The position numbers were made by a program, and so were the translations under genes. A DNA stretch of 64,000 bases, taken from positions 124,001 through 188,000 of the forward strand of contig JAUQQO010000010.1 of the NCBI GenBank assembly GCA_030549795.1, given 5' to 3'. Shown in pieces: positions 41,446 to 55,607 of this stretch. Under the pieces are notes generated by a model that was not told the DNA's origin, did no database searches, and worked only from the letters and a program-made list of their open reading frames with translations. The stretch comes from Pseudomonadota bacterium (GTDB lineage Bacteria; Pseudomonadota; Alphaproteobacteria; Geminicoccales; Geminicoccaceae). How positions within the stretch are numbered: position 1 is the first letter of the stretch; each line of letters starts with the position of its first letter.

Positions 41446-43280
41446 ACCTCGCTTCCGCTATGAGCGTGGTGGTCGTAGCGGCAGTGGGCGCACTTGTTGC
41501 CCTCGCGCAGAGTGCGTTCGCCGATCCGCCCGCCGAACCGCGCGTGCTCACCGACATCCCCGAGATCGGTCGTCGCGGCGGCGAAATCCGCACGCTCGTG
41601 GTGCGCGCCCGCGACACCCGGCTCTTGCACGTGTACGGCAATGCCCGCCTCGTGAGCTTCGATCGCGAGCTCAACTTCGTTCCCGACATCCTCAAGAGCT
41701 TCGAGGTCGAAGACGGGCGAATCTTTACTTTTCGACTGCGCAGGGGCCACCGCTGGTCGGACGGTCATCCCTTCACCAGCGAGGATTTCCGTTTCTGGTG
41801 GGAGGACGTGGCGCTCGACCCCAAGCTCTCGCCCATGGGCCCGCCCGTGCGCATGCTCGTGGAAGGCGAGCCGCCGAGCGTTGAGGTCATCGACGAGCTT
41901 ACCATCCGCTATCGTTGGTCGAAGCCCAACCCTTTCTTCTTACCCCTCAACGCCGCCGCGACGCCGGAGTTCATCTACGCCCCCAAACACTATCTCGCGC
42001 GCTTCCACGCCAAATATGCCGATCCGGCGGAGCTCGAGCGGCTCATCAAAGAGACCCGCTCGCGCGATTGGATGCAGCTGTTCCGCCGCAAGGAGCGGAT
42101 GAGCGAGTTCGACAATCCGGAGCTGCCGACGCTGCAGCCTTGGGTGTTGACCAACGCACCGCCCGCCGAACGCTTCATTGCCGTGCGCAACCCCCACTTC
42201 CACCGTGTCGACGCCAAGGGCCAACAGCTGCCCTATCTCGATCGGCTGATCCTGCAGGTGGTGGATGCCAAGCTCATTCCGATCAAGACCGCAGCCGGAG
42301 AAACCGATTTGCAGGCGCGCGGGCTTTCCTTGAAAGATTATACGTTTTTAAAGGAAAGCGAGGGGCGAAGCGGGCTCAAGATTTATCTGTGGCGCGAGAG
42401 TCGCGGCGCGCGCTTGGCCCTTTATCCCAATCTCAACGCCAACGATCCGGTCTGGCGCGCACTCTTTCGTGATCGACGCTTTCGGCTGGCGCTTTCGCTC
42501 GGCCTCGATCGCGAAGCGATCAACCAATATCTCTATTTCGGTCTCGCCACACCTTCCAACAATACGCTGTTGCCCGACAGTCCGCTCTTCAGCGAAGCGA
42601 TCGGGAACGCCTGTCTCGGCTATGATCCGAAGCGGGCCAACCAGCTCTTGGACGAACTCGGCCTTAAAGAGCGCACCCGCGAGGGACTTCGCAAGCTGCC
42701 CGATGGACGGCCGATGGAGCTCGTGATCGAGACCGCGGGAGAGGATACCGAACAGGTCGATCTGCTGGAGCTCGTGCGCGATTTCTGGCGCGCGCTCGGG
42801 ATCAAGATTCACTCCCGTCCTTCCGAACGCGAACTCTTCCGTAACCGCATCTTCGCTGGCGAGGCCTTGATGGTGGTGTGGTTCGGCAAGGAAAATGGGA
42901 TCATCACACCGAACATGGCGCCTTGGGAGTTCGCACCCACGAGCCAGGCCGACCAGCCGCACTGGCCGAAATGGGGTCAATATTTCGAGACCAAGGGAAA
43001 GGCCGGCGAACCACCGGATCTTCCCGAAGCGGTGCGCCTGCTCGAGCTCTATAAGGCGTGGATGGCGGCCACCGACGATACCCAGCGCGTCGCGATCTGG
43101 CGCGAGATGTTGGACCTCTATGCGCAGCAGTGCTGGACGATCGGAACCGTGGCCAATGTTCTGCAGCCGGTGGCGGCGCGCAACAACCTCGTCAACCTCC
43201 CTGAAGAAGGCGTGTGGGGCTGGGAGCCCTATGCGCAATTCGGCTTTTATCGGCCGGATACGTTCTGGTTGAAAAAATAA
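41442..43280 (+). CDS. peptide-type ABC transporter substrate-binding protein, long form
   Basis: A 612-residue family-5 solute-binding protein with a signal peptide (cleavage near SAFADPP). It shows GGEIRTLVVRARDTRLLHVYG, FRLRRGHRWSDGHPFTSEDFRFWWED and DRRFRLALSLGLDREAINQYLYFG. The length is like that of YejA-type proteins that bind large or modified peptides; the ligand is unknown. It is coupled to the double ATPase gene but has no permease next to it, the reverse of the binding protein at 22833. Confidence 0.9.
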   Translation: MNLASAMSVVVVAAVGALVALAQSAFADPPAEPRVLTDIPEIGRRGGEIRTLVVRARDTRLLHVYGNARLVSFDRELNFVPDILKSFEVEDGRIFTFRLRRGHRWSDGHPFTSEDFRFWWEDVALDPKLSPMGPPVRMLVEGEPPSVEVIDELTIRYRWSKPNPFFLPLNAAATPEFIYAPKHYLARFHAKYADPAELERLIKETRSRDWMQLFRRKERMSEFDNPELPTLQPWVLTNAPPAERFIAVRNPHFHRVDAKGQQLPYLDRLILQVVDAKLIPIKTAAGETDLQARGLSLKDYTFLKESEGRSGLKIYLWRESRGARLALYPNLNANDPVWRALFRDRRFRLALSLGLDREAINQYLYFGLATPSNNTLLPDSPLFSEAIGNACLGYDPKRANQLLDELGLKERTREGLRKLPDGRPMELVIETAGEDTEQVDLLELVRDFWRALGIKIHSRPSERELFRNRIFAGEALMVVWFGKENGIITPNMAPWEFAPTSQADQPHWPKWGQYFETKGKAGEPPDLPEAVRLLELYKAWMAATDDTQRVAIWREMLDLYAQQCWTIGTVANVLQPVAARNNLVNLPEEGVWGWEPYAQFGFYRPDTFWLKK

Positions 43281-43332
43281 ACTCGCCGCTTTTCCCCGGG
43301 CCTTCGCGTCCGGCTTCCGACGCTTAAGCGTT

Positions 43333-43752
43333 TCACGCCTCGGAACCCACCGACGGCGTGCTCGCTACGCGCTCGTAGGTCATCCCGGTTCGGCGTACCT
43401 GACCGGATGCGACAAGGCGCTTGAGCACTCCGGCAACCGAGCCCGGCAGCACCATATCGCCGCGCTGCAAGAGTTCTTGCGTGATCTCGCTCAAGGTGAG
43501 CGGCCGCTCGGCGAGCGAAAGGATATCGAGAATCGCCTTGTCGCGATCGGGTCGGCGCGCCCGTTGCGCCCGCGCCTGCAAAGCGCGCGCACTTTCTGCT
43601 TCGCCAAGGCTGGTCACGCTTTCAGCGCGCACGGTTTGTATAACTTTTGCGATCGCAGCATTGTATCCCGCATCATAGGCCTGCGCCAACAGCTCGCGCA
43701 GGTCGGCGATCGCTTTTTGGATCGCGCGCTCAAGCCATTCTTCTTTCGACAC
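43333..43752 (-). CDS. small protein with C-terminal winged-helix-like segment
   Basis: A 139-residue soluble protein of unknown family. The N-terminal half (SKEEWLERAIQKAIADLREL and AYDAGYNAAIAKVIQTVRAES) is helical. The C-terminal part (AILDILSLAERPLTLSEITQ, then VAGVLKRLVASGQVRRTGMTYE) reads like a winged helix: helix, recognition helix, wing. A DNA-binding role is inference. The GTG at 43752 has GGGGG upstream; the frame extends to 43809. It is divergent from the mau cluster and convergent with the binding-protein gene; ACGCTTAAGCGT (43320-43331) lies between the stops. Confidence 0.6.
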   Translation of the reverse strand: MSKEEWLERAIQKAIADLRELLAQAYDAGYNAAIAKVIQTVRAESVTSLGEAESARALQARAQRARRPDRDKAILDILSLAERPLTLSEITQELLQRGDMVLPGSVAGVLKRLVASGQVRRTGMTYERVASTPSVGSEA

Positions 43753-43905
43753 GGCACACCCCCACAGATCGCTTTCGTCAAAAATAGCATGTCGGTCGTC
43801 ATGCTCCAAGCGGTGGCCGACCGCAACCCCCTTCGCCGATCCAGCCGCAAACGGAAGAGCAAAAATAAACCGCGAGCTTTTACGACACGCTAAAGCAACC
43901 CGGAG

Positions 43906-43920
43906 CTCGCATGCTGCGAG
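43906..43920. promoter_or_regulatory. inverted repeat upstream of mau genes
   Basis: CTCGCATGCTGCGAG is a perfect 6-bp inverted repeat with a 3-base centre. It lies 267 bases upstream of mauF and 154 bases upstream of the divergent small gene, in a position suitable for an operator. No regulator is assigned. Confidence 0.3.
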
Positions 43921-44097
43921 CGTGAAAAACGCACTCGAGAGAATCGCACCGCAACCGCGACCACTGCCGCTCGCGATGGGCCGCGCACGCTTGTGAGCAA
44001 AAAGTGGTCACACTGCGCTGCAAACGCAGACACCTTTGGTTGAACTAAGAGAAACGCACGTGCCTTCTCTGCGCCCCAGCTCTGCACAAGCGACATA

Positions 44098-44118
44098 GCG
44101 TCGCAGGCGGTGCGACGC
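44098..44118. promoter_or_regulatory. strong hairpin before mauF
   Basis: GCGTCGCA, loop GGCGG, TGCGACGC: a perfect 8-bp stem 68 bases before the mauF ATG. It is not followed by a T-tract, so an operator or leader-RNA structure is more likely than a terminator. Confidence 0.35.
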
Positions 44119-44186
44119 TTGACCGCACCCGTCCGTCTGTGTCTTTTCGATTGAGAGTTGGTGAAGGGGGCGAAAGGGGGCGAAGG

Positions 44187-45032
44187 ATGTTCGTGACTGC
44201 GCGACCAGGCGCCACCGATACGCGTGCGACGATCGCCGACGAGCTCCGTTCGGTTCCCGACATCCTCCCAACCAGCCGCGAGCTCTGCACCAAGAGTAAA
44301 CTCGTTTTGGCATCGATCGCGCTTGCAAGCGGTGCGGGGCTGGCTTTCGTCCCGGGTGCGCGTGTGCTCACCTGGCCACTTCTCTTCGCGATCGCTTTTA
44401 TCGGCGGATTGCTTTCGACGTGGTCGCCCTGCGGCTACTCCTCGCTCGCGACACTTAGGCCATGGGGCAGCTGGAGCCCGCAGCGGGTGGTGGCCTGGGT
44501 GCCCACCGCGCTCGCCCACGCCTTGGGCTACCTCTTAGGTGGTCTCGTCTTGGGCGGCGCTCTGGCGCTCGCTGCGTGGTTGATCGCGGTGCCGGCGGAG
44601 GCGAGCTGGCCGGTTCTCGTCCTCGCTGCCCTCGCCCTCGCTTATGGGCTCGACCAGTTGGGGTGGCTTGCGCTTCCCTACCCGCAGCGCAAGGCGCAGG
44701 TCCCGCACGATGTGCGCTTGCGCTGGCCGATGTGGCGCATCGGGCTTCTGTATGGCTTCGCGCTCGGCCTCAATTTCGTCACCTATGTGCGCACCCCGAT
44801 CCTTTACCTCGTGGTGGCAGCGGCGGTGCTGTCCGGCTCGCCTGCGACTGCGATTGGACTTGTGCTCACCCTCAATCTCGGTCGCTTCCTGCCGCTTTTG
44901 ATCAACGCCTTCCCGGTGAGCGATCGCGCCGTCCAACGGTGGCTCGCCGAGCGGGAAGCGGCGTCGGTCGCAGCTGGAGCCGCCGCTCTCCTTCTCGTCG
45001 GCGCCGCTCTTTTCGCGGGCGCGCTCGCTTGA
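44187..45032 (+). CDS. mauF: methylamine utilisation protein MauF
   Basis: A 281-residue inner-membrane protein with about seven hydrophobic segments and the MauF-like motif STWSPCGYSSLATL. MauF is required for maturation of methylamine dehydrogenase in Paracoccus and Methylobacterium; its exact chemistry is not known. The ATG at 44187 has AGGGGGCGAAGG upstream. It is the first gene of the cluster, which then follows the classical order F-B-E-D-A. Confidence 0.9.
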   Translation: MFVTARPGATDTRATIADELRSVPDILPTSRELCTKSKLVLASIALASGAGLAFVPGARVLTWPLLFAIAFIGGLLSTWSPCGYSSLATLRPWGSWSPQRVVAWVPTALAHALGYLLGGLVLGGALALAAWLIAVPAEASWPVLVLAALALAYGLDQLGWLALPYPQRKAQVPHDVRLRWPMWRIGLLYGFALGLNFVTYVRTPILYLVVAAAVLSGSPATAIGLVLTLNLGRFLPLLINAFPVSDRAVQRWLAEREAASVAAGAAALLLVGAALFAGALA

Positions 45033-45091
45033 GCAGCCGCCGCTGCGCCTTCAGCCCCGTTCGTGCGCTCCGATCGGTTCGGGAGACCAGC

Positions 45092-46333
45092 ATGATCCCA
45101 CGCTCTTCGCTGCCCGTCTCTTTGCGCCTGTCTCGAACGCTCGTGTTGAGCGGTGCTGTGACCCTTGCACTCCTCCTCGGCGGGACGCCCGGAAGCCGCG
45201 CCCAGCATGGCCAGATCCCCGAGCTCTTGCGCCAGGTCGAAGGTGGCGTCGCGGTCGCCGTGCCGATCGACGACGTCACCGTGCTGCAGGCTCCCGAGCC
45301 CGACCTACGCCGGGTCTATGTCTACGATACCGCTGCCTTTGATGTGGTGACCAAAATCTACGGTCTCGACGGCACCACAGGACGCGTGCTCGGCCAGATC
45401 GACACGGGGCTCTTGACCAATATCGTGCTCTATGACAGCGGGCGCAAGATTTACCTCGCCGAGACCTGGTTCAAGCGCTTCTCCCAAGGCCCACAAGACG
45501 ACTTCATCCGCTGTCAGGACCCCAAGACCTTCTCGACCACTTGCGACTTCGATATTCCCGAAGGTCGCTTTCTGGTCATGACGATGCCGCAGATGACGGA
45601 CGTCACGACCGACGGCCGCTATCTGCTCTACTTCCAGTTCGCGCCCGAGCCGGGGGTGGGAATCGTCGATCTCGCTCAGCAAAAGCACATCCGAACCGTA
45701 CCGGTTCCCGACTGCTATCTGATCTTCCCTTCCGGCCCCAAGAGCTTTTTCATGCTGTGCCGGGAAGGCTCGCTCCTCTCGGTGTCCTTTGATGAGCGCG
45801 GCGAGGCCAAGATGCAGCATACGCCGGTGCTGCGTCCGGCCGACAAACATTTCTTCGACACCCCGGCTTTCTCGCGCAAAGCCGGCAAGATCTTCTTCCT
45901 CTCTTATGACGGCGATGTCTATCCCGTCGATATCAGCGGTACGGAAGCGAAGTTCGGCACACCCTTCTCGCTCTTTTCAGAAGCCGAGAAAAAGGAGGGT
46001 TGGGCTCCGGGTGGATGGCTGCCGGCGGCCTGGCACCGCACCTCCGACCGCCTCTACGTTCTCGTCGACAAACGGGCGCAATGGACGCACGCCTATCCGA
46101 GCGGGCATGTCTTCGTCTACGACACCACCACAGGCGCGCGGGTGCAGACCATCAAGCTCGAACATCCGGCCACCTCGATCGCGGTGAGCCAGGATCCCGA
46201 GCCGCTTCTCTACGCGCTGCAGGCGCACGGCGGCACGCTCGAGATCTACGATGCCCGCACCGGCGCCTTCCGCCAGAAGGTGAGCGAGCTCGGCCGCGAG
46301 CCCTACATCGTGTTGACCCCGGAGGAGAGCTGA
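45092..46333 (+). CDS. mauB: methylamine dehydrogenase heavy (alpha) chain
   Basis: A 413-residue exported protein with a signal peptide of about 37 residues (cleavage near SRAQHG), then a seven-bladed propeller. Family patterns are visible: RVYVYDTAAF, TKIYGLDGTTGRVLGQIDTG, CDFDIPEGRFLVMTMPQ and VFVYDTTTGARVQTIKLEHP. The heavy chain forms an alpha2beta2 complex in the periplasm with the TTQ-bearing MauA. Aromatic amine dehydrogenase heavy chains are similar, so the preferred amine is not certain. Confidence 0.9.
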   Translation: MIPRSSLPVSLRLSRTLVLSGAVTLALLLGGTPGSRAQHGQIPELLRQVEGGVAVAVPIDDVTVLQAPEPDLRRVYVYDTAAFDVVTKIYGLDGTTGRVLGQIDTGLLTNIVLYDSGRKIYLAETWFKRFSQGPQDDFIRCQDPKTFSTTCDFDIPEGRFLVMTMPQMTDVTTDGRYLLYFQFAPEPGVGIVDLAQQKHIRTVPVPDCYLIFPSGPKSFFMLCREGSLLSVSFDERGEAKMQHTPVLRPADKHFFDTPAFSRKAGKIFFLSYDGDVYPVDISGTEAKFGTPFSLFSEAEKKEGWAPGGWLPAAWHRTSDRLYVLVDKRAQWTHAYPSGHVFVYDTTTGARVQTIKLEHPATSIAVSQDPEPLLYALQAHGGTLEIYDARTGAFRQKVSELGREPYIVLTPEES

Positions 46334-46337
46334 GGCG

Positions 46338-46916
46338 ATGGCAGCGGCGAGCGCGCTTCTCGCCGAACCGGCCCTGCATGTGGCCGCGTGGCTAGTGCTG
46401 TTGGCCACCTTCGCGCTCGCGCTTCCCGGTAAGCTGCGCGATCCCGAGGCCTTCGCCGCAACCGTGCGCAACTATCGTCTTCTGCCGTCATGGGCGAGCA
46501 CACCCGTGGCGCTCGCCGTGATCGTAGGCGAGATCCTCGTCGTGCTCGGCCTCTTGTGGCCCGCGACGCGCGCGGCTGCGGCCGTGCTCGCGGCTTTTAT
46601 GCTCGCGCTCTTCGCGTTGGCGGTGGCGCTCAACCTCGCGCGCGGCCGCCGCAGCATCGACTGCGGTTGTTTTCGCAGTCTCGTGCGCGAACGCTTGAGC
46701 TGGGGGCATGTGGCGCGCAACGGGCTGCTCGTCGCAGCAGCGGCGCTCGTGGCGACGGTCGAGCCGCGGCCGGCGCAGATGCTCGATCTCGCGCTCGGGG
46801 CCGCAGCGGCGGTCAGCTTCGTGCTGCTCTCGCTTGCCGCTGCTCAGCTCTCCTTCGATCCCCGCCACGAGCTCGTCCTCGAGCAACCCCAACCCGCTTC
46901 CGGGAGCGTCTCGTGA
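46338..46916 (+). CDS. mauE: methylamine utilisation protein MauE
   Basis: A 192-residue inner-membrane protein with about four or five helices of the DoxX/MauE type and a conserved cysteine pair in IDCGCFRS. MauE acts with MauD in disulfide formation in the small subunit, which has six disulfides. It starts 4 bases after mauB and overlaps mauD by 4 bases. Confidence 0.92.
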   Translation: MAAASALLAEPALHVAAWLVLLATFALALPGKLRDPEAFAATVRNYRLLPSWASTPVALAVIVGEILVVLGLLWPATRAAAAVLAAFMLALFALAVALNLARGRRSIDCGCFRSLVRERLSWGHVARNGLLVAAAALVATVEPRPAQMLDLALGAAAAVSFVLLSLAAAQLSFDPRHELVLEQPQPASGSVS

Positions 46917-47551
46917 ACAGCCTGTTGATCGTTTCCGAGCTCCTGCAGTGGCTGGCCATTGTGAGCGGAGCAGTGGTGCTCTTGGGTCTTGCCCGCCAGG
47001 TGGGCGTGCTGCACGAGCGCTCGGCGCCCTTAGGCGCGCTCGTTACCGACAAAGGGCCGGATGTCGGCGAGCCGGCGCCTTTGTTCAACATGCGCGATTT
47101 CCGCGGCCGCCCGGTCCAGATCGGCGGTCAGCGGTCGGTCGGCGAGCTCCAACTCCTTCTCTTTCTCTCGCCGACCTGCCCCATGTGCGCCAAACTCTTG
47201 CCGACGGTGCAAAGCTTCGCAGCCGGCGAAGGCGTCGCACCCGTGATCGTGAGCGACGGCGACGAAGCGGATCACCGCCGCTTCCTCGAAGAGCATGATC
47301 TCGGCGACATTCCTTATGTCGTTTCGCCCTCGGTTGGCATGCGGTTCCAGATCGGAAAAGTACCCTATGCGGTCTTGATCGATCACGAAGGCCGCATCCG
47401 CGCGAAGGGCCTCGTCAATACCCGCGAGCATTTGGAAAGCCTCGTCGAAGCACACCGCACGGGTTACGCCACCCTGCAACAGTTCATCGCTGCCCAACGC
47501 CGGCCCAATGGTGCGGCTGCACCCACCCCGCACGCGCCGGCGGGCAGCTGA
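46913..47551 (+). CDS. mauD: methylamine utilisation protein MauD (thioredoxin-like)
   Basis: A 212-residue membrane-anchored thioredoxin-fold protein. One N-terminal helix (ELLQWLAIVSGAVVLLGLA) is followed by a periplasmic domain with the redox motif CPMC in LFLSPTCPMCAKLLPT and the cis-Pro loop GKVPYAVLIDHEG. It is expected to form or shuffle the disulfides of MauA together with MauE. GTG start overlapping the mauE stop. Confidence 0.93.
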   Translation: MNSLLIVSELLQWLAIVSGAVVLLGLARQVGVLHERSAPLGALVTDKGPDVGEPAPLFNMRDFRGRPVQIGGQRSVGELQLLLFLSPTCPMCAKLLPTVQSFAAGEGVAPVIVSDGDEADHRRFLEEHDLGDIPYVVSPSVGMRFQIGKVPYAVLIDHEGRIRAKGLVNTREHLESLVEAHRTGYATLQQFIAAQRRPNGAAAPTPHAPAGS

Positions 47552-47578
47552 CCTCGATCTCGCGCGGAGAGTCCGACC

Positions 47579-48121
47579 ATGTTGGGACGCAGCAAGTTCG
47601 ACCAACTCTTCGAAGCCCTCACCCGCCGCATCGCCTCGCGCTCCTCGCGCCGCAGCTTCATCGGCCGCGTCGGGCTCGCGAGCATCGGTGCCTCCCTCGT
47701 GCCGCTGCTGCCGCTCGATCGCCGCGGCGGCAAAAGCGCGCAAGCAGCCGATCTCGGAGGCTGGAAGCCGCAGACCAAGGACCCGGCGGCCTGCGATTAC
47801 TGGCGCCACTGCTCGCTCGACGGCTATTTGTGCCTGTGCGCGGGTGGCAGTCTCACCGCCTGCCCGCCGGGTACCGCGCTCTCGCCCAGCTCCTGGGTCG
47901 CGAGCTGCTTCAATCCGGAAGACGGGCAGAGCTATCTCATCGCCTATCGCGACTGCTGTGGCAAGAACATCGCCCGCCGTTGCGGGTGCTTCAACACGGT
48001 CGGCGAGCTTCCGATTTACCGGCCCGAATTCAGCAACGACATCATCTGGTGCTTCGGCGCCGAGAACGAGGCGATGACCTATCACTGCACCATCTCGCCG
48101 GTCATCGGCCGCGCTGCCTGA
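47579..48121 (+). CDS. mauA: methylamine dehydrogenase light (beta) chain with TTQ cofactor
   Basis: A 180-residue catalytic subunit. The long leader carries a twin-arginine motif SSRRSFIGRVGLASIG, so the folded protein is exported by Tat. The TTQ cofactor is made from two tryptophans, here Trp106 (SSWVASC) and Trp157 (NDIIWCFG), 51 residues apart as in the Paracoccus enzyme (Trp57 and Trp108). All twelve cysteines for six disulfides are present, and most of the mature chain matches the Paracoccus subunit. It oxidises a primary amine to an aldehyde and ammonia in the periplasm. Confidence 0.97.
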   Translation: MLGRSKFDQLFEALTRRIASRSSRRSFIGRVGLASIGASLVPLLPLDRRGGKSAQAADLGGWKPQTKDPAACDYWRHCSLDGYLCLCAGGSLTACPPGTALSPSSWVASCFNPEDGQSYLIAYRDCCGKNIARRCGCFNTVGELPIYRPEFSNDIIWCFGAENEAMTYHCTISPVIGRAA

Positions 48122-48153
48122 GCGGCGCGCGAGCGGCTGCGGGCGCGGCTGGC

Positions 48154-49113
48154 GTGTGGGTACCCTATCTCGCGCTCGGTCCTCTCAAGGTGGAAGGGGA
48201 CGAAGAGGCGGCGCGCGCCTCTTTTGGCGACCGCACCCAACGCCCGTTTCTCATCGCCTATCTCCTCGACTCACCGTTTCGGCGCGAGCTCGAGAGCGAT
48301 TTCGCGCTCAACAGTGAGCGCGAACTTTTCCTTGCGGATGCCGATGGGTGCCGCCTGCCCGCCCGCCTCTGCCCGGGGCGCAACGGTCGTCTCGCCGAGA
48401 TCCTGCTCTCGCTCGAGGCACGCTCGGCTGAGGAAGCGCTGGCGCGCAGCTGGCGAGCTGTGAGCACGGCCTGCAGCCGCTGGACCGTGGCCAGCGGGCG
48501 CGGTGTCGCTGTCGCCGGTTTTCGCATCGCCGACCTCCGACACCGCGCGCGCTGGCGGGTGGTCCCCTTCCAACCGAGCACGGTACCGCTCCCCGAGCTG
48601 CCAGCGACCGCGCTGCGCCCACCGCATCGGCTGCTTCTGCGCGCCTATGAGGAAGCGCGGCGCGGGCGCAGCGCGGTTCTACGCTTGCTCGCCTGTTGGC
48701 GCGTGCTCACCGCCTTTCTCGAAGGGCGTGAGCCTTTTGCCACCACCGACCGGCTCGCTGCCGCCCGCGGCCTTGCCCGCAGCGCGCTCGAAGTCAGCCG
48801 CCTCGATCTTGTGCTCGCCGACTGCCGCGCGCTTTTCGGCGAACCGACGCCGCTTGCGCTCGCGCGGGTGCGCGACTGGCTTCGCCCCCATGTCGCGCGC
48901 GCCCGTTCGCTGCTCGAGCCCGAGGGACCGATCGAAGAGGCGGAAGCCTGGTTCGCGTTCGAGGCGGAGCGGGAGCTCATAAGCGCCGCCAATCTCCTCG
49001 ATCTCATCGCCCATCGCCTGCTCGCCGAAGAACTCCGCTTGCTCGCTGCCCTTGCCGCACCCGAAGCTTCGCCCCTTGCGCGCACCCATCCCGAGCATGC
49101 GACGCAGAGCTAA
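48154..49113 (+). CDS. mauJ: MauJ-like protein
   Basis: A 319-residue cytoplasmic protein without signal peptide. By position, directly between mauA and mauG, and by the N-terminus WVPYLALGPLKVEGDEEAAR it resembles MauJ, a protein of unknown function that is not essential in the studied methylotrophs. The start is uncertain; GTG 48154 is the first reasonable codon after the mauA stop and has no clear ribosome-binding site. Its end overlaps the mauG start by 17 bases. No amicyanin gene (mauC) lies between mauA and mauJ, where it occurs in Paracoccus and Methylobacterium. Confidence 0.65.
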   Translation: MWVPYLALGPLKVEGDEEAARASFGDRTQRPFLIAYLLDSPFRRELESDFALNSERELFLADADGCRLPARLCPGRNGRLAEILLSLEARSAEEALARSWRAVSTACSRWTVASGRGVAVAGFRIADLRHRARWRVVPFQPSTVPLPELPATALRPPHRLLLRAYEEARRGRSAVLRLLACWRVLTAFLEGREPFATTDRLAAARGLARSALEVSRLDLVLADCRALFGEPTPLALARVRDWLRPHVARARSLLEPEGPIEEAEAWFAFEAERELISAANLLDLIAHRLLAEELRLLAALAAPEASPLARTHPEHATQS

Positions 49114-50119
49114 ACGAACGCTGCAGCGGATGGCTTTGGCAGCCGCCGCGCTCGTGGCAGCGAGCCTCGCCCCGGCACGCGGAGAAGAGCGCGATCTCGC
49201 CGCGCTGCGCGAGGTCTTCCGCCGGCCGGAACAGACGGCCACCGTGGTTGCGCCTGAAGAAGAGGCGCGCGCGCGGCTCGGCCGTCACCTCTTCTTCGAG
49301 CGGCTCCTTTCCGGAACCGGCCGCATGGCCTGCTCGACCTGCCACGATCCGGCGCGCTTGTTCCAGGACGACAGGCCGCGCGCGGTCGGCGTCTTCTACC
49401 GCGCGCTCGCCCGCCGCACACCCTCGCTCTTCGACCTCGCGAACGTGCGTCCGCTCATGCGCGACGGGCGCGCCGCCGACCTCGAGGCCCAAGTGCTGAT
49501 GCCCATCCTCGATCCCGATGAGATGGGGCAGACGGCGAAGCGGCTCCTCGCCCAACTCGGCCAAGTGAGCTTCTACCGCGAAGCCTTCGCTCAGATCTTC
49601 CCCGAGCGCGGGCTCACCCTCGACACCCTCGCGCAAGCACTCGCGAGCTATGTGCGCACACTCGAAAGCCCCCGCACCGCCTTCGATGCCTGGGTGGAGG
49701 GGGACGAGGCGGCGTTGGAACCCGAAGCGCAACGCGGCTTGGCACTCTTCGCGGGCAAGGCCGGCTGCGTCGCCTGCCATTTCGGCTGGCGGCTGAGCGA
49801 CGACCGCTTCCACGACATCGGCTTGCCCACAAACGACCTCGGGCGCGGCCGCTTCGATCCCGATCCCTCGAGCCGCTTCGCCTTTCGCACCCCCTCCTTG
49901 CGCTGGGTGGGCAAGCGCCCGCCTTATATGCACGATGGCTCGCTCGCCGATCTGCGGGCGGTGATCGAGCACTATGATCGCGGCGGCATCGCGCGGCCGA
50001 GCCGCTCGCCGCTCGTGCGACCGCTCGGCCTCACACCGGAAGAGAAAGCGCTGCTGCTCGCCTTCCTCGAGAGCCTCTCGCGCCCGCCGCCGGCAGAGCG
50101 CGAGGTGGTGCGCAAGTGA
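49097..50119 (+). CDS. mauG: di-haem TTQ-maturation enzyme MauG
   Basis: A 340-residue exported di-haem protein of the cytochrome c peroxidase/MauG family. A signal peptide is followed by two haem motifs, CSTCH from residue 79 and CVACH from residue 224. Other family patterns are LGRHLFFERLLSGTGRMACSTCHDPA in part, FRTPSLRWV and PPYMHDGSL. MauG completes TTQ synthesis in pre-MauA by oxidation. The frame opens earlier (49052), but ATG 49097 gives the signal peptide. GTGA overlap with the following cytochrome gene ties the two together. Confidence 0.92.
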   Translation: MRRRAKRTLQRMALAAAALVAASLAPARGEERDLAALREVFRRPEQTATVVAPEEEARARLGRHLFFERLLSGTGRMACSTCHDPARLFQDDRPRAVGVFYRALARRTPSLFDLANVRPLMRDGRAADLEAQVLMPILDPDEMGQTAKRLLAQLGQVSFYREAFAQIFPERGLTLDTLAQALASYVRTLESPRTAFDAWVEGDEAALEPEAQRGLALFAGKAGCVACHFGWRLSDDRFHDIGLPTNDLGRGRFDPDPSSRFAFRTPSLRWVGKRPPYMHDGSLADLRAVIEHYDRGGIARPSRSPLVRPLGLTPEEKALLLAFLESLSRPPPAEREVVRK

Positions 50120-51675
50120 GCCCGCGCCATCACACGCCGGCCGCGATCGCCGAGGCCCCGCTCGGGATCCGCCTCTGGCATACGGTTCACGCCCTTCTTT
50201 TCCTCCCACTTTTGATTACCGGCTGGCATCTGCACTATGGCCAGCTCGATCTTTGGGGCTATTCGCTTTCGCTGCGCTTACACGAACTCCTGGGATGGCC
50301 GGCAGCGATACTCGCTTTCGCTTATCCACTCTTCCTTTTCGTTTCTGGCCGCTTGCGCGATTACCTACCGCCGGTGCGCGGTCTTGCGCGCGCTGTGGCG
50401 CGCGAGCTCCGCCGCTATACGGTGGGGATCTGGCGTGGCGTGCCGCCGACGGGCGGCGGATCCGACGGCACGCGGCTCAATCCGGTGCAGCGGCTCCTCT
50501 ATTTGCCGATCGTCGTTATCGTCCTTCCCGCACTCGCTGCGAGCGGCCTTTTGCTGTTGGCGCCGAACATCGGGTTGGCCGTCGCCACGCAGCCGCAGGC
50601 GCGCGCCGTCCTCGCCACGGTCCACGCGCTTTTGGCCCTGTTCGCCACGCTTTTTCTCCTCGTTCATCTCTATATGGCGACCATGACCGATTGGCGGCGG
50701 ATCCTGCCGTTTGCCAGATGGAGGGTGGTGCTCGCGCTTTTGCTCGCGCTCGCGGCGGCAACTGCGCAGGCGGCAGAGATCGCCCTCGACCGCTCGACCC
50801 CGGCTCTGCAGTGCGTCGGCTGCCATTCCGGCACGCCCGGCTCGCGCCGGATCGTGCACGATCCGCGCGCGGGCAAACACAAGGACGTCACGGTCGAACT
50901 GGCACGGCTGCAGGCTGGTGTGCACGCGCGCTTGGCGTGCCGCGAGTGCCACAGCCGCGGCTTCGACCGCTTCCCCCACCGCGCACCCGCCGAGCGCCGC
51001 TTTCCCGCCTGTCGCGAGTGCCATCCGCGCAGCGAACCGGCCGCGGCGGCAGCGCGCGATGCGCTCTATGATTTCCCCCGCCTCGAACGCGAGCACGGCC
51101 TTACCGCACATGCCGAGGTGTTCCGCAAACTTCGCGGTGCGCGCGATTGCGAGGGCTGCCATCACCCGCACTACATGCAGACGTCCGCGACGCTGATCCT
51201 CCCGGCGCGGCTGCGGGCCGAGCACGACCGGCCGTGTCTTTCCTGCCACGGGGCGGAGGCGCGCGGCCCTCTTTCCGACCCGCTGCGCCCGGATCCGGTG
51301 GCGGCACATGCCACCCTTGCCTATGCCGCCCGCCATCTCGCGGCGGTGCGCTGCATCGATTGCCATGCCAGCCGCGACCGCACGATCGCCCACGATCTCT
51401 TGAACAGGGCGCGGGCAGAAGGCTGCACCGATTGCCACCGCGGCGACAGCTTCCTCCTGCGCGGTCTGTGGCGGTTCATTCCGGCTGCGGCGGAAACGCG
51501 TGGCGGCTTCACCAATGCCGGGCTTTTGGCCGAACACTATGTGCTCGCCGCCACCCGGCCGGCGTGGCTCGACCAGCTGCTGGTGGTCGCACTCCTGCTG
51601 CTCGGGCTGCTGATCGCAGCCCATGGGGCGCTGCGTTTGGCGGCAGGGCTGCGGCGTCGGCGCACCCGCAGCTAG
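50116..51675 (+). CDS. cytochrome b / heptahaem cytochrome c fusion protein
   Basis: A 519-residue membrane protein, not a known mau product. Residues 1 to about 220 form a four- or five-helix b-type cytochrome of the formate dehydrogenase gamma/Ni-Fe hydrogenase type, with candidate haem b ligands in LWHTVHALL, LRLHELLG, ATVHALLA and LVHLYMAT. The periplasmic part then has seven CxxCH motifs starting at residues 233, 275, 299, 345, 374, 413 and 437, and one C-terminal helix (about 490-510) anchors the end. It could pass electrons between periplasmic donors and the quinone pool. It overlaps mauG (GTGA) and stands where Paracoccus has mauM/mauN. Confidence 0.85.
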   Translation: MSPRHHTPAAIAEAPLGIRLWHTVHALLFLPLLITGWHLHYGQLDLWGYSLSLRLHELLGWPAAILAFAYPLFLFVSGRLRDYLPPVRGLARAVARELRRYTVGIWRGVPPTGGGSDGTRLNPVQRLLYLPIVVIVLPALAASGLLLLAPNIGLAVATQPQARAVLATVHALLALFATLFLLVHLYMATMTDWRRILPFARWRVVLALLLALAAATAQAAEIALDRSTPALQCVGCHSGTPGSRRIVHDPRAGKHKDVTVELARLQAGVHARLACRECHSRGFDRFPHRAPAERRFPACRECHPRSEPAAAAARDALYDFPRLEREHGLTAHAEVFRKLRGARDCEGCHHPHYMQTSATLILPARLRAEHDRPCLSCHGAEARGPLSDPLRPDPVAAHATLAYAARHLAAVRCIDCHASRDRTIAHDLLNRARAEGCTDCHRGDSFLLRGLWRFIPAAAETRGGFTNAGLLAEHYVLAATRPAWLDQLLVVALLLLGLLIAAHGALRLAAGLRRRRTRS

Positions 51676-51732
51676 CGCGGCGAGCCCCGGCTGCGCTGCG
51701 CCGCCCCATTGGCAGGAGCGTGCGCCCTTGCC

Positions 51733-52206
51733 ATGCTGGCATATGTGTCGAAGGCGATGGGGAGAGGCGCTGTGCCCGAGCGTCCCGTGCGCGAGATCAT
51801 GACCCGATCGGCGATGGCCTGCTGCGCACCCGACGACACGGTGGAGGTCGCGTGCCGCAAGATGGACGAGGGTTGCTGCGGCAGCGTGCTGGTGTGCGAG
51901 GGTGAACGTTTGGTCGGGATCTTCACCGAACGCGATCTCGTGCGCCGGGTAATAGCGAAGGGGATGGACCCCAAGAGCACGCCTGTGCGCGCGGTGATGA
52001 CCATCGACCCGGTGACGATCGCCCCGGATGCGCCGGTGCGCGAGGCGATCCGGATCATGGACGAGGGGAGCTTCCGCTACTTGCCGGTGGTGGAGGGGGG
52101 CAAGCTCGTCGGCATCGTCTCGGCGCGCGATCTACCCTATGAGGAGATCGGCAAGATGGCGCGCATGCTCGAGCTCGAGCACACCCTCGCCGAGCGGATT
52201 TGGTAA
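51733..52206 (+). CDS. CBS-domain pair protein
   Basis: A 157-residue cytoplasmic protein made of two CBS domains (VREIMTRSAMACCAPDDTVE to LVGIFTERDLVRRV, and VRAVMTIDPVTIAPDAPVRE to LVGIVSARDLPYEE). Such pairs bind adenosyl nucleotides and regulate other proteins. An unusual CC and CC pair (ACCAPDD, EGCCGS) sits in the first domain. The start is uncertain: ATG 51733, ATG 51757 or TTG 51709. It is the last plus-strand gene before the mau region ends; a link to amine use is not shown. Confidence 0.85.
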   Translation: MLAYVSKAMGRGAVPERPVREIMTRSAMACCAPDDTVEVACRKMDEGCCGSVLVCEGERLVGIFTERDLVRRVIAKGMDPKSTPVRAVMTIDPVTIAPDAPVREAIRIMDEGSFRYLPVVEGGKLVGIVSARDLPYEEIGKMARMLELEHTLAERIW

Positions 52207-52457
52207 TTCACAGAACGGCGCGTCAGCTCAAGCGGGAAAGTACGCGAAAGACGGGGCCGGTCTGCTCAGACCGCACGCGGCAATACTTTAAGACAAAACC
52301 TTAAGATACCTCGTGGGCTCAAAAGACTTGGGTTAGCTCTTAGCTGCAACGACACAAGACCCGAGACCCAGGGCTAAGTTGTTTCGACATAAATCCCGGC
52401 GCTGAATACGCAAGGTTTCGCTCAAGACCTTTAAGCTCGACCTTATGATCTTTTCGC
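52207..52457. other. A/T-richer intergenic stretch
   Basis: About 250 bases between the convergent CBS and lolA stops, clearly lower in G+C than the rest of the window from about 52280. No protein frame is recognised. It holds GGTCTGCTCAGACC (52259-52272) and several short complementary words (for example CTTAGC near 52339 with GCTAAG near 52372). A small RNA or the end regions of both transcripts are possible; neither is supported by a known family. Confidence 0.4.
52259..52272. terminator. inverted repeat after the CBS gene
   Basis: GGTCTGCTCAGACC forms a perfect 6-bp stem with two central bases, 53 bases after the CBS stop. The sequence downstream is A-rich (AATACTTTAAGACAAAA) rather than T-rich, so termination of the plus strand is only a guess. 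Confidence 0.25.
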
Positions 52458-53111
52458 TTACCACCCCTCCGGCCAGCCGAAGATCTCGGGATCGTGGAAG
52501 CGGAACAGCGCTGGGTCGACCGGACGGCCGAGCTGGAGTTCGTCTAAGAGGATGGTGGTGGTGAAGCCTTGCGCGTCGGTGATCGACCAGCGGCGCAGCT
52601 CCAACGGTCGCTCGGCGAGCACGATCACCACCCGACCCTGCTCGGGCGCACCGGCGCGGATCACGGTAAGCGCGATCTCGCCCGCACGGCGCCGTACCTC
52701 CACCACCTCGATGTCACCTTTGAGTTTGACCTCGCGATCGAGGAGGAAGGAGAGCGGCGTTTGCGAGAGCGGCAGGGTGTTCACTTGCTTGACAGCGGCA
52801 TCGATGAAGATGACCCGCCAATCGGTGGCGATGAGCTTCACCCGCGAGGGTGGATCGTAATCGAGGCGCAGCCGACCGGGCCGAGACAACCACAACCGCC
52901 CGGTGGCCATCCGCCCGTCCTCCGAGAGCTGCGTGAAGCGCGCCTCGAGTGTGGTAATCCCGTTGAAATAGGCCTCGATGCGGCGGAGAAGCTCCTCGTC
53001 GCCTGGGGCAAGCGCCGCCAGCGCCCGTTTGCTCACCGCAAGCGCAGCGAGGGCGAGCACGAACCCGCGCCGCCCAAAGAAAGGCTCACAGACGCGTCGG
53101 TTCCGTGCCAT
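52458..53111 (-). CDS. lolA: outer-membrane lipoprotein carrier protein LolA
   Basis: A 217-residue periplasmic chaperone that ferries lipoproteins from LolCDE to the outer membrane. It has a signal peptide (residues 10 to about 33) and the LolA pattern: RIEAYFNGITTLEARFTQLSEDG, GRLWLSRPGRLRLDYDPPSR and LPLSQTPLSFLLDREV. The start overlaps the ftsK 3' end by 26 bases, the arrangement usual in alphaproteobacteria. Confidence 0.92.
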   Translation of the reverse strand: MARNRRVCEPFFGRRGFVLALAALAVSKRALAALAPGDEELLRRIEAYFNGITTLEARFTQLSEDGRMATGRLWLSRPGRLRLDYDPPSRVKLIATDWRVIFIDAAVKQVNTLPLSQTPLSFLLDREVKLKGDIEVVEVRRRAGEIALTVIRAGAPEQGRVVIVLAERPLELRRWSITDAQGFTTTILLDELQLGRPVDPALFRFHDPEIFGWPEGW

Positions 53112-55590
53112 CCACCCCGCCCCGTCCGATCAGCACCTGGCGCCGGCCGACATGGTCGGCCGGGCTCACCAGGCCCTCGCGCTCCATCCGCTCGATGAGC
53201 TTGGCGGCGGAGTTGTACCCGATCGCCAACCGCCGCTGCAGATAGCTCGTCGACGCTTTGCCGTCGCGCATCACGATCTCGACCGCTTGCGCGTAAAGAC
53301 GGTCCTGCTCGTTGCTCTCGCTTCCCGCGAAGAGCGGGCCGGCCGGGCCGGGGGCTTCGGGTTCTCCGACGTCCTCCGTCACCCCGTCGAGATAATCGGG
53401 CGGTCCTTGCGCCTTGAGATGGTGCACCACCGCTTCGACCTCGGCATCGGTCACAAGTGGCCCATGCACGCGCACGATGCGATCACCGGGCATCAAATAG
53501 AGCATGTCGCCTTGGCCCAACAGCTGCTCAGCGCCCGAGTCCCCCAGCACCGTGCGGCTGTCGATCTTGGAGGAGACGCGAAAGCTGATGCGCGAGGGCA
53601 AATTGGCCTTGATCACACCGGTGAGCACGTCCACCGAGGGTCGTTGGGTGGCCACGATGAGGTGGATCCCGGCAGCGCGCGCCTTCTGCGACAGCCGTTG
53701 GATGCAGTGCTCGATCTCCTTGCCGGCAGTGAGCATGAGATCGGCCACCTCATCGACGATCACCACGATGAGCGGCAAAGGCTTGGTGTCGATCGGCTGG
53801 TCCTCGATGATCGGCAGCCCGGTGCCGGGCTCGAAGCCGGTGCGCACCCGACGCACGAGCGTCTCGCCGCGGGCGAGCGCCTGCTGGACGCGGCGGTTGA
53901 AGGCGAAGATGTCGCGCACCCCCAAGTGCGACATGAGCCGGTAACGCTCGTCCATCTGCCGCACGACCCATTTGAGCGCCACCACCGCCTTGTGCGGCTC
54001 GGTCACCACCGGTGCCAACAGATGCGGGATGCCTTCGTAGACCGAGAGCTCGATCACCTTGGGATCGATCATGATGATCCGGCACTCGGCGGGCGTGAGC
54101 CGATAGAGCAAGGACAAGATCATGGCGTTGATCGCCACGGACTTGCCCGAGCCCGTGGTACCGGCGATCAAAAGATGCGGCATGCGGGCGAGATCGACGA
54201 TCACCGGCTGCCCGGCGATGTCCTTGCCGAGCGCAAGCGGCAGCCGCGCTTCGCTCGTCCGCCAGATGTCGGATTCGAGAAGCTCGCGCAAATAGACGGT
54301 CTGGCGCCGCTCGTTGGGCAGCTCGATGCCGATCACGTTGCGGCCGGGCACGGTCGCGACCCGCACGGATACGGCCGAGAGCGAGCGGGCAATATCATCG
54401 GCGAGGCTGATCACGCGTTGCGAGCGCGTGCCCGGTGCGGGCTCGAGCTCGAAGAGCGTGACGACTGGGCCCGGCTTGACATCGATGATCTGCCCCTTGA
54501 CCCCGAAATCGTCGAGCACGGCTTCGAGCTGACGGGCGGTTTCCATGAGCACCGCGCGCGAGAGGCCCGGATCGGCCGTCGCTTTGGGTGCCGCCAAGAG
54601 ATCGAGCGATGGTAATACGAAGCCGTCTTGTGCCCGCCCCGGCTCTTGCTGCGGTTCGTCGACCTCGCTCGCGCGTTCCGGCTCGCTCGGTTCGACGGTG
54701 AGCGGGGGACGCACGACAGCTTGCCGACGGCGCGGGACTTCTGCCGACTTGCGCTCTTCTGGGCGCACAGTTCCTGGACGGCGCCGTAAGGGCCGCAGCG
54801 GCTCATCCTGATCCGGCCTCGGCTCGCCCGTGAACCAGCGCACGAGACGAGCGAAGAGCGCGCCGCCCTTCAAGCGCGCAGCGCTCTCCGCGCTCGTTGG
54901 CGTTGTCGGCTCGTCCTCCCGCGCATTGCCGTGTCCACGCGCGCGTTCGCGCGCCAAGGCCGCGCGCGCTCTCACCACCATCCAGCGGCCGGCGCGGCTG
55001 GACACAGAGCCCAGGCTCTCGAGCGCGGCCCGCGATTCGCCCACCCGTAGCCCGAGTGCGGCGATGCCGGCGCAGAGCGCGAGGACTCCCGTGCTCCACC
55101 CGTAAAACCGGCCATCGAGCCACAGCCGCAAATGGTTCATGAGGAAATCGCCGACGATCCCGCCGAGACCGGCGCGGAACGGCCATTCCGCCGGCTCGGG
55201 TACGGGTCGGTCGGCGAAGAAGGCAGCCGCCGCGAGAAGAGCGATCGGAAGCGCCAGGGTGGGCAACCAGGCCCAGCGCAAGGGTCGATCGAAGAGAAGG
55301 CGCAGGCCTCGAGCGAAAAAGGCAAGCGGCAACAACCAGGCAGCAAGGCCCAGCGTTTGCAGCAAGAGATCGGCGACGCTAGCTCCAAGCCGCCCCGCGG
55401 GGTTGCGAACATTGCGCGCCCCGCTGGTCGCATGGTTGAGGCTGGGATCGGCGGGATCGAAACCGAAAAGGGCGAGCGCGAGCCAGCCGGCGAGCAGGAT
55501 AAGGGCGGAGCCGAGCAGCAGGCGCGCCCCGGCCCTCAGCCAATGCCGCAGCCGCGGCTCTTCAACAGCTTTGAGGGTTTGCACGGCCAT
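53086..55590 (-). CDS. ftsK: DNA translocase FtsK
   Basis: An 834-residue septal DNA pump. Four or five N-terminal helices (about residues 20-190) anchor it in the membrane. A Pro/Glu/Arg-rich linker leads to the motor, with Walker A in LIAGTTGSGKSVAINAM, Walker B in VVIVDEVADLM and a winged gamma domain at the C-terminus (TSYLQRRLAIGYNSAAKLIERME, DNA-sequence reading). The linker is shorter than in E. coli. The ATG at 55590 is chosen over the TTG at 55611, and starts 17 bases after the aminotransferase stop. Confidence 0.95.
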   Translation of the reverse strand: MAVQTLKAVEEPRLRHWLRAGARLLLGSALILLAGWLALALFGFDPADPSLNHATSGARNVRNPAGRLGASVADLLLQTLGLAAWLLPLAFFARGLRLLFDRPLRWAWLPTLALPIALLAAAAFFADRPVPEPAEWPFRAGLGGIVGDFLMNHLRLWLDGRFYGWSTGVLALCAGIAALGLRVGESRAALESLGSVSSRAGRWMVVRARAALARERARGHGNAREDEPTTPTSAESAARLKGGALFARLVRWFTGEPRPDQDEPLRPLRRRPGTVRPEERKSAEVPRRRQAVVRPPLTVEPSEPERASEVDEPQQEPGRAQDGFVLPSLDLLAAPKATADPGLSRAVLMETARQLEAVLDDFGVKGQIIDVKPGPVVTLFELEPAPGTRSQRVISLADDIARSLSAVSVRVATVPGRNVIGIELPNERRQTVYLRELLESDIWRTSEARLPLALGKDIAGQPVIVDLARMPHLLIAGTTGSGKSVAINAMILSLLYRLTPAECRIIMIDPKVIELSVYEGIPHLLAPVVTEPHKAVVALKWVVRQMDERYRLMSHLGVRDIFAFNRRVQQALARGETLVRRVRTGFEPGTGLPIIEDQPIDTKPLPLIVVIVDEVADLMLTAGKEIEHCIQRLSQKARAAGIHLIVATQRPSVDVLTGVIKANLPSRISFRVSSKIDSRTVLGDSGAEQLLGQGDMLYLMPGDRIVRVHGPLVTDAEVEAVVHHLKAQGPPDYLDGVTEDVGEPEAPGPAGPLFAGSESNEQDRLYAQAVEIVMRDGKASTSYLQRRLAIGYNSAAKLIERMEREGLVSPADHVGRRQVLIGRGGVDGTEPTRL

Positions 55591-55607
55591 GGTGGCGATC
55601 CCGCGCC

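Follow-up and report, generated by a model that had tools for sequence, protein, structure and literature searches.

A fused b561/heptahaem cytochrome gene coupled to mauG in a methylamine dehydrogenase operon without detected amicyanin

Methylamine dehydrogenase (MADH), amicyanin and cytochrome c form the textbook system of interprotein electron transfer. A mau operon from a Geminicoccaceae bacterium (genome G000, GCA_030549795.1, contig JAUQQO010000010.1, positions 124,001-188,000 of the forward strand; this stretch of 64,000 nt is termed the window, and coordinates below are window positions) lacks the amicyanin gene mauC and ends in a gene for an unusual multihaem cytochrome, hereafter named X, which raises the question of where the electrons of MADH go and whether X carries them.

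Gene content of the mau operon

The features of the locus, all on the + strand, are as follows:
44187..45032, +, mauF, membrane protein with 52% identity to Indioceanicola MauF
45092..46333, +, mauB, MADH heavy chain (PF06433, E 9e-112; TIGR02658, 393 bits, below the cut-off of 454)
46338..46916, +, mauE (PF07291, E 1e-27)
46913..47551, +, mauD (TIGR02661, 272.5 bits, above the cut-off)
47579..48121, +, mauA, TTQ-bearing MADH light chain (TIGR02659, 304.5 bits against a cut-off of 196.85)
48154..49113, +, mauJ (PF17419, 20.6 bits, below the cut-off of 28; start uncertain)
49097..50119, +, mauG, dihaem enzyme of TTQ biosynthesis (TIGR03791 as best match, 269 bits, below the cut-off of 444)
50116..51675, +, X, fused b561/heptahaem c protein with a C-terminal transmembrane segment (PF01292; seven CxxCH motifs; GTGA overlap with mauG)
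50158..50700, +, b561 domain of X (PF01292, residues 15-195), four hydrophobic helices with invariant H22, H56, H170 and H184
50812..51438, +, heptahaem c domain of X (residues 233-441), seven CxxCH motifs with invariant H270, H288, H332, H352, H398, H407 and H426

Family matches confirmed the intact order mauF-B-E-D-A-J-G described in the earlier note, and the same eight genes, X included, stand in the same order in four further genomes of the genus. MauF is needed for MADH maturation; the window protein had no match in Pfam or NCBIfam, and P. denitrificans MauF is likewise without a Pfam match. The TIGR cut-offs are NCBI's own thresholds, and the lower scores against TIGR02658 and TIGR03791 were rejected as signs of non-membership, since P. 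denitrificans MauG itself reaches just 96.8 against TIGR03791 and Indioceanicola MauB 391.5 against TIGR02658. MauA has 12 cysteines, and the tryptophans of its SWVASC and IIWCFG segments, which we take to be the TTQ pair, align with those of P. denitrificans MauA, bearing out what had been noticed before. The best PDB match of MauA was 3c75_L (E 8e-83), with MADH chains ranking above aromatic amine dehydrogenase chains; an assignment to the latter was rejected, the MADH chains outscoring the best such chain by 37 to 148 bits. Judged by light chain, heavy chain, MauD/E/F and MauG, the cluster is a methylamine dehydrogenase (TTQ) operon, and methylamine is its predicted substrate given that MauA lies nearest to MADH.

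The absence of mauC, mauM and mauN, also pointed out earlier, held throughout. No mauC lies between mauA and mauJ in the window, where there is no room for it because the mauJ frame is open straight from the mauA stop (48118), the first common start being GTG at 48154. An amicyanin encoded elsewhere, raised in the earlier note as a possible acceptor, was not found: the cupredoxin family PF00127 gave 0 matches in all 5 genomes holding the cluster, its positive controls being the amicyanins of P. denitrificans (86 bits) and Methylobacterium (81 bits). MauM and MauN are absent after mauG, and the genus holds no clear MauN homologue (best E 6e-6, partial).

The expected anticorrelation between X and mauC proved perfect in the sample (five clusters with X and no mauC, 14 with mauC and no X, one with neither), amicyanin adjoining MauA in 14/15 plasmid records (MauA 62-69% identity). 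It carries little statistical weight, however, because X represents one lineage and the 14 comprise 13 Paracoccus and one Methylobacterium; moreover, Indioceanicola shows neither amicyanin nor X, so that a missing mauC is not linked to X. A further 20 MauA loci fetched outside the genus, from class and phylum samples, have B, D and A and mostly E; they gave no match to mauF, mauJ, mauG or mauC and one weak MauR-like match, and thus have no bearing on the anticorrelation.

Architecture and inheritance of X

X has 519 residues and starts inside the mauG stop codon, as GTGA, in full agreement with the fusion and coupling first described. Between 40000 and 56000 of the window, CxxCH motifs were found in mauG and X only. 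The seven CxxCH motifs and seven further histidines of the c domain were kept in 30/30 aligned sequences, as were the four histidines of the b domain, and this invariance makes X a probable nine-haem protein; with bis-His ligation throughout, it would probably act as an electron wire. We infer the haem loading and the membrane topology from these patterns. An AlphaFold model from five sequences had a mean pLDDT of 44.6, and a PDB search with X returned a single weak match (E 0.006).

The two halves of X occur in other genomes of the phylum as adjacent genes for a heptahaem c protein and a b561 protein, which share the same seven CxxCH motifs, seven further histidines and four b-haem histidines; the module consists of separate genes, c and b, whereas X is one chain, b then c. 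On this likeness X is a fused form of the two-gene module rather than a novel protein type. Besides G000, 36 genomes had a match to the c part, all of them, to judge by their handles, within the sample in which MauA was sought; none was among its MauA-positives. An octahaem protein adjoins the module in 18/20 loci read, and two of these neighbours resemble a reductase family, which suggests outward, quinol-oxidising flow for the related modules. No octahaem protein lies beside X in the window, and one protein query, run with no positive control, found it in 0/6 genomes of the genus. Searches yielded no description of the function of the heptahaem c/b561 module. The claim that no described mau component has this architecture stands to the extent that, among the matches listed, no account of X in a mau operon was found in the open-access literature; it must be tempered in that the halves exist as a two-gene module and CbcL-type fusions are described in the available portions of published work.

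The recurrence of the fusion beside mauG, which the earlier note had proposed to look for, is evident within the genus: X directly follows mauG in 5/5 genomes holding the mauF-G cluster. By the listed starts the two genes overlap in 4/5 clusters; the start of X in the remaining one, that of G021, lies inside mauG or at most 5 bp downstream. X of the four other cluster-bearing genomes has 62-70% identity to the window X and all seven haem motifs. With G023, a member of the same genus that retains an intact X at this locus but lacks mauF-G, six genomes carry the intact fused frame with seven motifs, the five others being 62-71% identical to the window X. The genomes are mostly multi-contig and four genus-mates are titled as MAGs, which speaks for an assembly chimaera or a frame-merged product, yet one of the six is a single contig and all have the same open frame; a frameshift or assembly artefact was rejected on this ground, and such an origin is exceedingly improbable.

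X shares its tree topology with the mau genes and rejects the one obtained for the flanking genes (AU p 1.6e-5), as do mauG alone (AU p 6e-5) and the seven mau proteins together (AU p 0.012, delta lnL 339); G021 and G024 are sisters in the X and mau trees but not in the flanking-gene tree. By these phylogenies, X is co-inherited with the mau genes against its flanks. A general occurrence of the fusion away from mau genes, the contrary case considered at the outset, was seen in part, namely in G023 and in c-b fusions away from mau in four relatives (G007, G009, G010 and G018), and is opposed by this co-inheritance in the genus. The X of G023 implies that X has another use or that the loss of mauF-G is recent. 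No match to X was found in plasmids and viral contigs.

Possible electron paths through X and MauG

X probably links the amine-oxidation genes to the respiratory membrane. We tentatively favour, at a little under an even chance, X as a quinone-linked conduit that was recruited into the mau operon and carries electrons from MADH to quinone. The protein would be anchored in the membrane by both ends, with two b haems bound in its four-helix b561 domain and seven bis-His c haems on the periplasmic side, and the module would have been recruited in this genus into a complete MADH operon devoid of amicyanin and MauM/N. Reduced TTQ of periplasmic MADH would then pass electrons to X, directly or via a small carrier, from where they would reach the quinone pool by way of the seven c haems and then the two b haems, in place of the copper route; the partner protein, the quinone reaction and the direction of flow are parts of this proposal. 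In its favour we count the place of X behind mauG, its co-inheritance with mau, the lack of any PF00127 match, the conserved haem ligands, the occurrence of CxxCH in mauG and X only around the operon, and the genes that adjoin mauA elsewhere, namely a monohaem c frame in a second B-E-D-A cluster of the genus and amicyanin in plasmid records. Low potentials are common among bis-His multihaem cytochromes, and flow from TTQ to X would therefore be uphill unless tuned, which counts against X as acceptor. Also at odds with that role are the position of X in the mauM/N slot, coupled to mauG rather than to mauA or mauB, its occurrence without mauF-G in G023, the octahaem-linked modules and a monohaem c of G000.

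The coupling to mauG invites another assignment, possible though unlikely, in which X oxidises quinol via its b haems and feeds electrons to MauG, for O2 activation or re-reduction, during TTQ synthesis, replacing MauM/MauN. X occupies the slot of the NapG/NapH-like genes in a genus with no clear MauN homologue, its start overlaps or nearly abuts mauG, and the related modules adjoin octahaem proteins. MauG itself is altered: the window protein keeps the equivalents of H35, Q103, P107, E113, H205, H224 and Y294, and the position of the interhaem Trp93 is Arg in 5/5 genus copies and Trp in 22/22 others aligned. According to the available text of PMC6405878, this tryptophan is required both to stabilise bis-Fe(IV) and for TTQ biosynthesis. 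Given its loss, the electron path of the genus MauG may have changed, in line with a supply from X. W199 of P. denitrificans MauG was rejected as a diagnostic residue, since every other aligned MauG, that of Methylobacterium among them, has Ala or Gly there. Against a MauG-feeding role, X is kept without mauG in G023, no electron exit from MADH is offered, and a 1994 study reportedly found MauM/N dispensable for growth on methylamine in model strains.

X might instead be a general quinone-linked conduit that merely sits beside mau, with the electrons of MADH leaving via a soluble cytochrome c, which we regard as rather unlikely. The intact X of G023 and the fusions away from mau in the four relatives fit this account, and candidate carriers are at hand: in 6/6 genomes of the genus, the mauA of the second B-E-D-A cluster is immediately followed by a monohaem c frame, the one in G000 could serve both dehydrogenases, and a monohaem c is encoded upstream of mauF in the Indioceanicola cluster, where no amicyanin was found. 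Mere adjacency sits poorly with the co-inheritance of X with mau against the flanks, with its overlapping or nearly abutting mauG in 5/5 clusters, and with a MauA-family protein being present in 10/10 family genomes that hold X or an X-like fusion versus 16/31 overall, a count drawn from just four genera.

Extending the conduit from MADH to quinone, X and the altered MauG might jointly constitute a copper-free methylamine oxidation, in which a nine-haem wire from TTQ to quinone also serves TTQ synthesis without the interhaem Trp relay; the combination is rather unlikely. A variant with no detected cupredoxin, with a coupled b/heptahaem conduit and with a MauG devoid of its interhaem Trp would allow two questions to be tested, namely which other acceptors TTQ can use and what supplies or relays the redox equivalents of MauG. 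The mau operon would give the heptahaem c/b561 module a defined setting.

Comparison with known systems

The window shares with the mau clusters of Paracoccus denitrificans and Methylobacterium the order mauF-B-E-D-A-J-G, the TTQ light chain and the Tyr-His ligation residues of MauG, and differs from them in lacking mauC and mauM/N, in the X gene that follows mauG and in the Arg at the interhaem Trp position of MauG. NapG/NapH-like genes stand directly after mauG in Paracoccus and Methylobacterium and one small gene later in Indioceanicola. The plasmid NZ_CP030128 of Indioceanicola profundi has the nearest plasmid MauA (68.5%), and its mau region, like that of the window, shows no amicyanin by annotation or by match. 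It departs from the window in its NapGH-like mauM/N, in the monohaem c gene located upstream of mauF and in lacking X. An operon of mauBEDA and a cytochrome c was published without amicyanin for Methylacidiphilum infernorum in the accessible part of PMC2474590. As far as that part of the source goes, it differs from the window in having no mauF, a MauG encoded elsewhere and a single cytochrome c as the added gene, and it resembles the second cluster of G000 more closely.

The Tyr-ligated MauG-like dihaem enzyme BthA of Burkholderia, according to the available text of PMC6405878, has Ser for the interhaem Trp and still forms bis-Fe(IV); compared with the BthA so described, the window MauG has Arg, not Ser, at this position and sits in a mau operon. 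X resembles CbcL, whose single chain combines a membrane domain of dihaem b type with a multihaem c domain in the available portions of PMC9129911 and PMC6295460, as does that of X when compared by haem-binding motifs and ligands only. Nine c haems are given for CbcL in the same excerpts, along with six TM helices, whereas X has seven c haems and a four-helix b561 domain, with b before c. For the inner-membrane quinone oxidoreductases CbcL, MtrH and MtoC, both directions of flow are proposed in these portions of PMC9129911 and PMC6295460.

The mau cluster and its distribution

G000, the genome of the window (G000:C46:124001-188000), spans 3.16 Mb and is 99.96% complete. Eight genes lie there on one strand (+) in the order mauF-B-E-D-A-J-G-X, X encoding a 519-residue cytochrome b561/heptahaem cytochrome c fusion, with 4-base overlaps at the mauE/mauD and mauG/X junctions. 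This order, claimed in an earlier note, was confirmed in G000 and four genus-mates. Family scans backed every mau gene except mauF, for which no model exists, and mauJ, which fell below the Pfam cut-off. The window MauA scored 169-280 bits against methylamine dehydrogenase (MADH) light chains vs 129-132 bits against aromatic amine dehydrogenase chains. CxxCH motifs in window 40000-56000 are confined to the mauG and X frames; another monohaem frame lies in the window at 2-316. The features of G000 are as follows:

Window 49097-50119 (+): mauG
Window 50116-51675 (+): X
L029 8220-10991 (G000:C6): second TTQ dehydrogenase cluster, B-E-D-A with a monohaem cytochrome c frame

A MauA-family protein was found in 16 of the 31 family genomes examined. 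Five of the six genomes of the genus (G000, G020, G021, G022 and G024) have all eight genes of the cluster, identically ordered and located, and that the X locus is an artefact seems vanishingly improbable. As far as the contigs extend, a gene for an oligopeptide-binding protein borders the cluster at one end, and CBS-domain, LolA-like and FtsK-like genes border it at the opposite end (the CBS domain was family-tested, the other names were assigned by reading the sequence). The four other X copies share 62-70% identity with that of the window and keep all seven motifs. All six genomes also carry the second cluster, B-E-D-A, its A 52-55% and its B 33-36% identical to those of the window, with a monohaem cytochrome c frame immediately after mauA and no mauF, J or G match.

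Elsewhere in the family, G006, G009, G010 and G016 each have a cluster (L040, L044, L046, L048) in which MauA comes directly after a MauB match and nothing between the two matches MauE or MauD. A weak MauA-like match (L098, G187:C1:1656488-1656691) is interrupted by four in-frame stops and is possibly a decayed gene or chance. A partial one (hit H30, 48% over half the query) lies in Sphaerotilus sulfidivorans (NZ_CP035710.1 90455-90733) under a gene that bears a cytochrome c annotation.

No detected cupredoxin, and an altered MauG

The proposed absence of mauC, encoding amicyanin, held: the cupredoxin family PF00127 gave no match in the five cluster-bearing genomes, while the amicyanins of P. 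denitrificans and Methylobacterium scored 86 and 81 bits as controls. As these genomes are 95-99.96% complete, a cupredoxin gene overlooked in all five is unlikely. G023, the sixth genome of the genus, has two PF00127 domains. A MauN query returned only partial, weak matches in five of the six genus genomes (best E 6e-6), none of them a MauN. Among 15 plasmid records with MauA at 62-69% identity (gene order read for three), amicyanin lies just beside MauA in 14; in the remaining one, Indioceanicola, it was neither annotated nor matched in the region. X had no match in the plasmid collection.

The five genus MauG copies (window 49097-50119; L030, L032, L034, L037) were aligned with those of P. 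denitrificans, Methylobacterium and Indioceanicola and with 19 MauG-like class matches, which are not known to make TTQ. All five carry Arg at the interhaem Trp93 position, where the 22 others have Trp. They retain equivalents of H35, Q103, P107, E113, H205, H224 and Y294, residues whose roles, like that of Trp93, are in part taken from PMC6405878. According to that study, MauG needs its interhaem Trp to stabilise bis-Fe(IV) and to make TTQ; the study describes BthA, with Ser at this position, as still forming the bis-Fe(IV) state (PMC6405878); the Arg-bearing MauG may thus still function.

Composition and relatives of the fusion

Multihaem homologues of X were restricted to four of 385 genomes in the class sample (at most three candidates scored per genome), all of this family; two further matches covered b561 only. 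In the phylum sample, 59 of 339 genomes matched: G000, 36 others with a c-part match and 22 with b561 only. Twenty of these 36 were examined as loci (L189-L208), and all have both halves, a c part with exactly seven CxxCH in its own frame beside a separate b561 frame. An eight-haem frame adjoins b561 in all but L199 and L205, so that a heptahaem c/b561/octahaem three-gene cluster recurs at 18 of the 20 loci; L208 has its b561 and eight-haem parts in a single open frame. Two octahaem proteins scanned reached 74 and 71 bits for TIGR04315 (octahaem tetrathionate reductase family), far under the cut-off of 375, and a single one compared with the PDB matched 1sp3 (E 9e-12). The scanned neighbour of the cluster in L201 is an ankyrin-repeat protein, and ORFs of similar look occupy that place in L191, L193 and L196.

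All 30 aligned c domains (six X, four reversed fusions, 20 separate genes) hold seven CxxCH and exactly seven further His (X positions 270, 288, 332, 352, 398, 407, 426); H503 is kept in 26. The b domains share four His (22, 56, 170, 184) in 30 of 30 and H40 in 28. These residues suggest that X holds nine bis-His haems with no open coordination site, which points to a role in electron transfer and not in catalysis. The hydropathy profile shows four helices in b561, a fifth segment (204-222), in the place of the N-terminal hydrophobic segment of a separate c gene (e.g. L201), and a C-terminal helix. In this layout the c domain would face the periplasm, as c-type haem attachment needs.

Possible roles and known systems

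X also occurs without mauF-G. G023 (one contig, 99% complete) has a single MauA, of the second type, and mauF-G were not found at the locus where its genus-mates have them. Its X is intact (518 residues, seven motifs; the stop within the match is terminal by its coordinates), lies between the same flanking genes and has a branch no longer than that of G020 (0.43 vs 0.47). At L099 9039-11500, an mrr-like restriction endonuclease gene sits just upstream, with a 4-base overlap, in the place of mauF-G. G007, G009, G010 and G018 encode fusions of reversed order, heptahaem then b561, with no mau match within the 14-18 kb read around them; the four ligand His of the b561 part align in G010 and also in G009, where Pfam did not report it. 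These cases count against an exclusive mau role, and a general conduit without mau dedication is conceivable, if improbable.

Inheritance was compared across the five cluster-bearing genomes, with flank alignments lacking FtsK and LolA in G022 and SBP in G021. The X alignment yields the mau topology and rejects that of the flanking genes (delta lnL 69, AU p 1.6e-5), as do mauG alone (AU p 6e-5) and seven mau proteins jointly (delta lnL 339, AU p 0.012); the node placing G020 in the X tree has only 77% support. Between G021 and G024, identity is 99% for MauA, 97% for MauB and 81% for X, and only 69% for the CBS proteins. Together these results indicate that the mau unit, X included, probably moved by recombination.

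X is probably a quinone-linked wire. It may accept electrons from MADH in place of amicyanin, a reading to which we give not quite an even chance. This role is plausible because X is the operon's only c-type cytochrome besides MauG, and because each of the other TTQ operons that were compared closely has either amicyanin or a monohaem c. Alternatively, X could donate electrons to MauG, replacing MauM/N: it occupies their slot, is coupled to mauG, adjoins an altered MauG and has relatives that adjoin octahaem proteins. This donor role is also plausible but less likely than the first; we infer all functional steps.

The earlier note knew of no described mau component with this architecture. The b/multihaem-c design itself has already been described for CbcL-type proteins, and the heptahaem c and b561 module exists as two genes elsewhere in the phylum. 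A mau-type operon without amicyanin has likewise been published for Methylacidiphilum infernorum. What stands as new, within the open-access literature searched, is that the fusion runs in b-then-c order and sits in a mauF-G operon lacking amicyanin.
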